From the NCBI GenBank assembly GCA_019113025.1, contig DXIF01000244.1, positions 1 through 33,889 of the forward strand: 33,889 nucleotides of DNA, given 5' to 3'. Source of the stretch: Candidatus Anaerobiospirillum stercoravium (GTDB lineage Bacteria > Pseudomonadota > Gammaproteobacteria > Enterobacterales > Succinivibrionaceae). The notes under the pieces were generated by a model that was given only the letters and a program-made list of their open reading frames with translations, did no database searches and was not told the DNA's origin. The position numbers and the translations under genes are program-made. Of this stretch, positions 5,077 through 7,417 are shown in pieces; within the stretch, counting starts at the first letter, position 1; each line of letters opens with the position of its first letter.

Positions 5077-5138
5077 TCAGGGCGTGCGGGGCCAACTCTG
5101 TTACACTAAGCGCAATATGAGCTAACAGTGAGGATATT

Positions 5139-5655
5139 ATGGCCCCACAATCAGCGAGCGCTACTCCCAGCGCTAACGAAAACGACAAACTGGCATACCT
5201 GCCCCACATCCCCACCCGTGACGAATACCAAGCGCTTTTGGCCACTTACCGCCAAGAAATGCAGCATATGATCAAGGGTGATGACGCAACGGCAATCACG
5301 GCGCGCACCGAAATTAAGGACTACTGCCAAAGTTGCCTTAAGAAGTTTGACCTCTTAGTACAGACCCCGGTCTATAGCACCATCATGATGGGGCAAAATT
5401 TTCGCTGGATGTAACGCCTCGAGCGTTACTGGCCGCCGGTTTCGTTCACCGTCGAGCAACTGGTTGGGATCACCCTCCGGCTCAAGCTGCGCGGCTATGA
5501 GTCCATCGCCGCTCTCCCAGATGCGCATCTTAATCCCACAACATTTAGGCCTCCCTCCGATCCCAAACCTAACGGTGCTGAAGTCTCACCTCGAGCACAT
5601 CCCATTCTTCCTCATCTACAATGAGCTCGTCGAGGCTAGCGCCTATGTGCCCTAA
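5139..5655 (+). pseudogene. Decayed, truncated paralogue of the downstream 545-aa ISAs1-like protein
   Basis: IPTRDEYQALLATYRQEM...CLKKFDLLVQ parallels ITREEFQQVLQSHQDYM...CLKIYDHAVE downstream; homology continues past the in-frame TAA (5412-5414) as FTVEQLVGITLRLKLRGYESIAAL versus LTVDQLIWVAVLTKLHGAEDVDDI; later frame disruption. Confidence 0.6.
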
Positions 5656-5785
5656 ATCCTCTAAGCGCACCTGAAGCTTGTTTGAGCTACAAGCTCTTAT
5701 CCTCAATTTGCATCGCACGCCGCACCTTGAAGCGGCGTTTGCGGTTATAGTGACGGTACGATTGGCCCACATAAGGAGAACATCT

Positions 5786-7315
5786 ATGTCCCGCTCCCGA
5801 GCTTCTCAACGCAAGGCTCCCACTACCAGCAAGGCTCCCACTACCAATAGCAGCGAGCCAACGCCCGACATCGCCATGACGCTCAATGAAGGCGAGCTGC
5901 TGGGCGAGTCATCCGGTGAGTCTGTGCAATTTTCCTTTAGCCCGATTACGCGCGAGGAGTTCCAACAGGTCTTGCAGTCACACCAAGACTATATGCGCAA
6001 GAACAATCCTGAGCATGACGATGCTGAGTTCATAGAGGCCCTCGCCACATATCATGACCAGTGTCTTAAGATCTACGATCATGCCGTCGAAAACAACTTT
6101 GTGATCGTACAAGCCCTCAATGCATGCCTAAAGCAGCTCGTGCGCCTCAATGCCGATGACTCGCGTATCCCTCAGAAGCATGCGCACTTAACCGTCGATC
6201 AACTGATATGGGTGGCGGTGCTGACCAAGCTCCATGGCGCTGAAGATGTTGACGATATCGTCAGTCAGTACTACATACACTATCCCGAGCTCTATTTGGC
6301 GATCCCAGAGCTGCCGCCCCTAGAACAGGGGCCTGAGGCATCGGAGGTCATGGCCGCACTGTACTTATTAGATGAGCCTGAGCTCAATTGCTTGATCTTG
6401 CGCCACTTACGGCTGCTCGCCACCCTCTTGAAGCAATTAGAACGAGAGGGCATCCCCGTCAGCACCAAAGAGCTGTTCTTAGACACCCTGACTCAGCTGA
6501 TTCCGCCGCGCACTCACACGGAGCTGGTGGCGCTAAGCGCCGGCGATCTGGAGGTATGCGGCGATATCTTGTTAGGCGAGATCATGGTCCCCGAGCTCCT
6601 TTATGCCAAGTGCGGTGGCAGCAACCAAGCCAATGTGGTGCTCAAAGTACCTGAAAACGAGCTGTTCTCCCAGCTCTTTATGGCGGTCGAGCAGCTCTTT
6701 GACCAGTATGATCAGGATCAAGCCCACGGCTTTAAGGCCGAGGCTTACCAAGGCCTTGATGAGTGGGGCGTGGCGCATCTTGATCCTGATAGCTACTTTG
6801 AGGCTAGCAGCACCGACACCAAAGATGGGACGGAGCTTAGCTATAAGCTTGAGCTGTTTGACGTGCCGGAGCTGTTGCCTTTGGGCTTAAACTCCTTGCC
6901 GTGGATCCAAAATATCGTGCGCCTGACCACTACCACCAAGCCGCTGGGCAAGAGCAAAGCGCGAGCGCACACTGAGGTCAGCTACTATGTCAGCTCGCTT
7001 ATCGAATATTGCACCGACCCAGACATCATCTTGAGTATCATCTTAGGCGAGCGCCACTATCTCTTAGGTGACACCTATGATTTCGACATCGACCATCTGG
7101 TGGACGTGCAGCACAAGGAGTGCCCGCTCAACAAGCTGTGCCGGAAGTTGCTCAACAACTTCATTGAGATCAACAATAACATGGGCATCAAGCCCAAGCT
7201 CAAGAGCAAAAAGGCTGCCCGTGAGCTGATGGAGCAAATGCCGATGAGCATGATCTTCGAGCGCCTCTTAGCCTACGAGCTCAAGCACATTAAGGCGCAC
7301 CACAGCGAAGATTAG
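5786..7315 (+). CDS. Divergent ISAs1-family transposase-like protein, probably catalytically inactive
   Basis: RBS AAGGAG then ATG at 5786 (track start 5678 is upstream). HLTVDQLIWVAVLTKLHGAEDVDDI resembles the ISAs1 N-terminal HpL.DiL...L.GAe...dI block; EVSYYVSSLI...ERHYLLGDTYDFDIDHLVDV resembles the RYYISSL...iR.HW.IEN.LHW.LDV block. Confidence 0.55.
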   Translation: MSRSRASQRKAPTTSKAPTTNSSEPTPDIAMTLNEGELLGESSGESVQFSFSPITREEFQQVLQSHQDYMRKNNPEHDDAEFIEALATYHDQCLKIYDHAVENNFVIVQALNACLKQLVRLNADDSRIPQKHAHLTVDQLIWVAVLTKLHGAEDVDDIVSQYYIHYPELYLAIPELPPLEQGPEASEVMAALYLLDEPELNCLILRHLRLLATLLKQLEREGIPVSTKELFLDTLTQLIPPRTHTELVALSAGDLEVCGDILLGEIMVPELLYAKCGGSNQANVVLKVPENELFSQLFMAVEQLFDQYDQDQAHGFKAEAYQGLDEWGVAHLDPDSYFEASSTDTKDGTELSYKLELFDVPELLPLGLNSLPWIQNIVRLTTTTKPLGKSKARAHTEVSYYVSSLIEYCTDPDIILSIILGERHYLLGDTYDFDIDHLVDVQHKECPLNKLCRKLLNNFIEINNNMGIKPKLKSKKAARELMEQMPMSMIFERLLAYELKHIKAHHSED

Positions 7316-7385
7316 CGACCTGCCGTACGGCACTTAAGCGGCAAGACTACAATGCAGCGCAACACTGCCGCTTGCTGCCTGATAC

Positions 7386-7416
7386 AAGATATGGGGCCTG
7401 TGGCCCCCTATCTTTT
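7386..7416. terminator. Bidirectional intrinsic terminator between convergent genes
   Basis: AAGATAtGGGGCC-TGT-GGCCCCcTATCTTTT. Confidence 0.8.
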
Positions 7417-7417
7417 A

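Follow-up and report, generated by a model that had tools for sequence, protein, structure and literature searches.

The window analysed here is a stretch of 33,889 nt, contig C209 of a 3.3 Mb assembly (86% complete) of Candidatus Anaerobiospirillum stercoravium. It carries a long open frame, called Q below, which a first-pass annotation made from the sequence alone regarded as a possible exapted, catalytically dead ISAs1-type transposase. The frame raises three questions: whether its product descends from an ISAs1 transposase, whether it could still cut DNA, and whether it is still kept as a protein.

Reading frame and coding signal

The frame and the signals around it are as follows.

5786..7315, + strand: Q, an ISAs1-derived protein of 509 aa with a degenerate catalytic core (profile, hhalign and codon analysis)
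5773..5779, + strand: Shine-Dalgarno-like AAGGAGA upstream of ATG 5786, read from the sequence
7393..7407, no strand assigned: hairpin terminator that separates Q from the FimV-like gene running towards it (scores on both strands)

Q runs from ATG 5786 to the stop at 7315 and encodes 509 aa. The frame had been described as an ORF of 545 aa; the frame is present, but that length needs a start at TTG 5678. The ribosome-binding site ascribed to Q was found, with AAGGAG about 7 nt 5' of ATG 5786. The terminator ascribed to it exists as a hairpin at 7393-7407, but the two genes beside this hairpin converge on it, and it scores on either strand.

The codon log-odds of Q was 0.336 bits per codon, within the range of 0.26–0.49 in 15 neighbouring genes, and its third-position GC was 0.70, as in the host. 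This agreed with the earlier description of a long intact frame with host-like codons. The five other frames over Q all had negative codon scores and contained 16–37 stops. The chance of a stop-free frame, estimated from shuffled sequences, was about 1.6e-9. The coding signal was even in every segment scored and host-like up to the last codon. A compensated frameshift in the core was ruled out by the frame 0 coding signal throughout. Near the start of Q, window positions 5811-5846 hold a perfect 18-bp in-frame tandem duplication, which gives the repeated KAPTTS/KAPTTN.

Descent from an ISAs1 transposase

Sequence searches of Pfam, NCBIfam, PADLOC, PHROGs and PDB gave no credible match to Q, and the curated models NF033564, PF01609 and PF13808 gave none even with E allowed up to 10. 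Genomes from its own bacterial family gave weak matches to the N-terminal part of Q, and these led to proteins of 490–540 aa with PF13808 and PF01609. The ISAs1 model NF033564, with a cut-off of 70 bits, scored one of these relatives at 125 bits. On this score the same-family relatives are classed as true ISAs1 transposases. A weak PF13808 match at L065 was rejected as chance, being antisense to an Era-like GTPase gene.

The first profile was built from six ISAs1 relatives, one of them a truncated N-domain, with Q left out, and it scored Q at 45 bits. A 17-member profile scored Q at 52 bits, with a best score of 5.2 among 3000 shuffles and 1.3 bits for the best other gene of the window. Across these scores of 45–52 bits, 3000 shuffles reached at most 8.4. 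The C-terminal half of Q by itself gave 19.0 bits, against at most 7.8 for shuffles. In hhalign, Q and ISAs1 aligned with a probability of 97.5% (E 8e-12), colinear over residues 118-500. These profile, C-terminal-half and hhalign scores extend the ISAs1 origin beyond the N terminus to the whole length of Q.

The best-preserved part of Q had a profile score of 38 bits, and residues 51-200 were modelled with pLDDT mostly of 66–94.

5939..6415, + strand: N-terminal helical part, aa ~52-210, related to the ISAs1 N-domain (DDE_Tnp_1_assoc, PF13808)

Both parts of the ISAs1 outline recognised earlier, the N-terminal block and the SYYVSSL block, aligned to ISAs1. Identity to intact ISAs1 members was 14–21%, and Q formed a long branch in the N-domain tree. 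Sequence comparison thus makes it almost certain that Q descends from an ISAs1 transposase.

Loss of the catalytic core

Three segments of Q correspond to the catalytic core.

6449..6550, + strand: aa 222-255, from which the beta1-beta3 and first-Asp region of intact ISAs1 is absent (alignment and model)
6566..6589, + strand: second-Asp strand ILLGEIMV, with Asp changed to Glu265 (alignments)
6977..7081, + strand: SYYVSSL strand and shortened Glu helix, aa 398-432 (alignments and models)

When ISAs1-type ORFs were surveyed across the bacterial family, nearly all full-length members proved to keep D, D and E. The first-Asp segment of Q was deleted or unalignable. The DGQ/DGK strand had no counterpart in the alignment of Q, as had been stated for the DGK segment, and residues 222-255 had pLDDT under 50, with frame 0 still coding there. 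The reading of the second Asp region as ILLGEIMV was also correct, with Glu265 at the Asp site in the alignments. The reported replacement of the IEN Glu was borne out in part: the triad Glu fell in a gap, but Glu422 (GERHY) lay 1–2 residues off, so this result is alignment-dependent. The helix of the triad Glu shrank from 25 residues in the model of an intact control to 8 in the model of Q. Q kept 18/41 family-conserved columns and most intact full-length relatives 34–40; the divergent ISAs1 members L106 (21/41) and L077 (27/41) were also below the usual count. The other 23/41 conserved positions were lost in Q with zero stops.

The structure of an intact relative was predicted with AlphaFold as a control (pLDDT 87). 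It matched Tn5 transposase at E 2.9e-7, and the Tn5 inhibitor 1b7e was among its structural matches. Its elements were beta1 (199-206), beta2 (224-230), beta3 (235-242), beta4 (265-268) and the Glu helix (394-418). The model of Q had a pLDDT of 67, with low confidence in the core. From beta4 on, its elements followed the order of the control, with the Glu helix at 412-419 and without beta1-beta3; because ISAs1 members are among the sequences aligned for this model, the resemblance outside the core partly follows from that alignment. Foldseek, run with the Q model on PDB and viral models, returned chance matches only and no solved DDE structure. This null result can be interpreted because the intact control does match Tn5, and it fits the absence of the first half of the RNase H core.

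The DDE-fold check that had been proposed therefore gave a divided answer: sequence profiles reached ISAs1, but the folded model of Q matched no DDE structure. An intact triad, named beforehand as evidence against the claim, was looked for in Q and was absent, and the survey and alignments indicated a broken one. Profiles with shuffle controls, the catalytic-residue survey and the control structure all agreed with the proposed ISAs1 origin and catalytic loss. From the alignments and models, Q is very probably catalytically dead.

Locus, copy number and mobility

Q lies between genes for a phosphoesterase and a FimV-like protein, next to a partial tandem copy.

5077..7417, no strand assigned: stretch from the phosphoesterase to the FimV-like gene, which holds Q
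5139..5650, + strand: truncated, decayed paralogue of the N-terminal part of Q (tblastn 24% identity, E 6e-6)

The decayed paralogue consists of an ORF at 5139-5414 followed by an in-frame stop, beyond which the coding signal fades. Throughout the genus this stretch is bordered by the phosphoesterase gene on one side and the FimV-like gene on the other. The gap between them is only 100–360 bp in G003, G004 and G006, and G008/G002 have a glycosyltransferase-like ORF there. In G009 the site holds a long ORF (L054:3527-4630, - strand) that by eye resembles a degraded IS1634-type transposase gene and has no Pfam match. Since the site is empty or otherwise occupied in sister Anaerobiospirillum genomes, Q is most simply an insertion in its own lineage. 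When a target-site duplication was sought, the empty sites were too diverged from the window for the junctions to be aligned.

Q is a single copy in the source assembly (86% complete). Terminal inverted repeats would have spoken against exaptation; no flanking repeat pair was found around Q beyond imperfect chance-level matches. Elsewhere in the window, a frame for AnmK (anhydro-N-acetylmuramic acid kinase) at 511-2235 on the + strand begins with about 138 extra residues that the AnmK match does not cover; by eye these resemble a transposase N terminus.

Orthologues and constraint on Q

Neither 57 genomes of the family nor a sample of 395 genomes of the order yielded an orthologue of Q, and nothing came from searches of GTDB genome contigs, IMG/VR, phages or plasmids. 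Neither conserved synteny nor a recognised DNA-binding domain was found for Q. With no orthologue and the sisters' site empty, vertical inheritance at a fixed locus was not seen. An intact frame without catalysis in single copy, as looked for in a domesticated transposase, was found.

The probability that an unconstrained Q would have acquired no stop was estimated with an assumed kappa of 4 and assumed rates. At 0.05 substitutions per site it was 0.09; at 0.2 it fell to 6e-5, and counting indels lowered it further. A protein would have to pass 0.2 substitutions per site before over half of its conserved positions were gone. Given the low probability of no stop at that divergence, the motifs were most likely lost under continuing constraint on the frame, and the loss of 23/41 conserved positions with no stop argues against simple pseudogene decay. 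Constraint may have ended recently; the adjoining paralogue is a pseudogene and shows that such loss happens, so Q could be on its way out.

A parallel ISAs1-derived gene and other ISAs1-like frames

A second ISAs1-derived gene, read as catalytically dead, was found in the genome that carries Q (G000:C23, L118:38-1384, + strand). This L118 type occurs in 8/10 Anaerobiospirillum genomes, the source genome and seven others, including A. succiniciproducens DSM 6400; the members (L134-L138, L117, L119-L122) are ~40–87% identical. The gene lies near cinA-like and glycosyltransferase-like genes in several genomes. It matched ISAs1 in hhalign at 98.5% and had a shortened core in an intact frame, with no aligned triad in the profile search. 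The closest pair, G000 and L134, gave a dN of 0.08–0.10, a dS of 1.2–1.9 and a dN/dS of ~0.04–0.08; the estimate rests on this pair, most other pairs being dS-saturated. This ratio shows that selection maintains dead genes of ISAs1 origin in Anaerobiospirillum and that ISAs1 exaptation occurs in this genus.

The similar shortening of the core raised the question of a common origin of Q and the L118 type. A direct profile comparison of Q and L118 was null, and Q was not the sister of the L118 type in the N-domain tree (weak support).

Other unusual ISAs1-like frames were seen in the bacterial family. L170:867-6926 (- strand, G007:C5) is a single 2020-aa frame: an ISAs1-like N-domain and a degraded DDE half (ADALN changed to SAAGM) form its two ends, with ~1500 aa of Ala/Ser-rich low complexity between them. 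In the genome of the window, L002:1273-2031 (- strand, G000:C139) has an ISAs1 N-domain and a Pro/Glu-rich tail without a DDE half. Three tandem ORFs of 197–241 aa at L099:510-2892 (- strand, G002:C216), 37–48% identical, gave ISAs1 N-domain matches only. In another genus, a 416-aa ISAs1-type ORF (L086:589-1836, - strand, G033) has P, E and A at the catalytic positions.

Proposed explanation and alternatives

The explanation preferred, with somewhat better than even confidence, is that Q is a lineage-specific, non-catalytic ISAs1 descendant that is still made and selected and would act by binding DNA and oligomerising without cutting. The ancestor was almost certainly an ISAs1-family DDE transposase with relatives in the same bacterial family. 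Its descendant lies between the phosphoesterase and FimV-like genes, with a partial tandem paralogue. Catalysis was very probably lost as the beta1-beta3/first-Asp segment disappeared, the second Asp became Glu and the Glu helix was truncated. Q would then bind DNA and oligomerise through its preserved N-terminal domain and scaffold, at host sites or at the ends of the resident ISAs1 of the genome. That Q is still made and selected is inferred. Its maintenance as a protein is moderately favoured by the intact frame despite the motif loss and by the parallel L118 case in the same genome. Exaptation of Q is thus likely but unproved, and its DNA-binding role is tentative.

The main competing explanation, appreciably less probable, is a recently released transposase pseudogene, which diverged while useful to a mobile element, lost its function late and has yet to acquire stops. 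Such a history would suit an orphan on a long branch, at a site empty in sister genomes and beside a truncated paralogue in decay. However, intact ISAs1 members mostly keep at least 34/41 columns, very distant ones included, and Q keeps 18; unconstrained loss on this scale should bring stops or frameshifts, and the codon signal of Q is host-like to the last codon. Continued activity as a strongly divergent DDE transposase with relocated acidic residues is very improbable. In some alignments Glu222, Glu265 and Glu422 do fall close to where the three residues would be expected, but the first three core strands and inverted repeats are absent, Q is a single copy, and no mobile relatives were found.

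A trans-acting repressor of the resident ISAs1, following the logic of the Tn5 inhibitor, would block cutting by binding the ends or forming mixed multimers. A catalytically intact-looking ISAs1 is present in the genome at a contig edge (C266), the model of Q keeps the N-domain and C-terminal helices, and the intact relative had 1b7e among its structural matches. This is the most concrete version of the mechanism, but identities of 14–21% make mixed multimers or shared end recognition doubtful, and the repressor is considered unlikely. The wider proposal is speculative: Anaerobiospirillum would repeatedly convert ISAs1 transposases to sequence-specific, non-cutting DNA-binders, with Q and L118 as independent cases that lost the first half of the RNase H core and kept the N-domain and scaffold.

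Comparison with known systems

Anaerobiospirillum seems to have reused ISAs1-type enzymes more than once. If the pattern is real, one genus would hold several independent cases, one with clear purifying selection. A cutting enzyme would have lost the half that carries its active site and kept its scaffold, which would make the role of the scaffold directly testable. Searches of the open-access literature turned up no paper on bacteria that retain catalytically dead proteins of ISAs1 origin.

Eukaryotes have well-documented cases of domesticated DDE transposases. In bacteria, RAYT proteins are transposase genes kept as single-copy host genes and are a precedent for a single-copy domesticated bacterial transposase such as Q. 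Unlike Q, they use HUH/Y1 rather than DDE chemistry, keep their catalytic residues and are associated with REP repeats.

The Tn5 transposase inhibitor (PDB 1b7e) is also transposase-derived and non-transposing and is structural kin of the ISAs1 fold. It is an N-terminally truncated product of the transposase's own gene, whereas Q has a gene of its own and its core is broken. With ISAs1 transposases (NF033564; PF13808 and PF01609) Q shares colinearity over 118-500, the N-terminal helical domain, the SYYVSSL strand and the C-terminal helices. It differs from them in having no family-model match, a broken triad, a truncated Glu helix, a single copy and no terminal repeats. The L118 type is like Q in its genus and genome, ISAs1 derivation, shortened core without an aligned triad and intact frame; unlike Q, it is conserved in 8/10 genomes of the genus and is under purifying selection.
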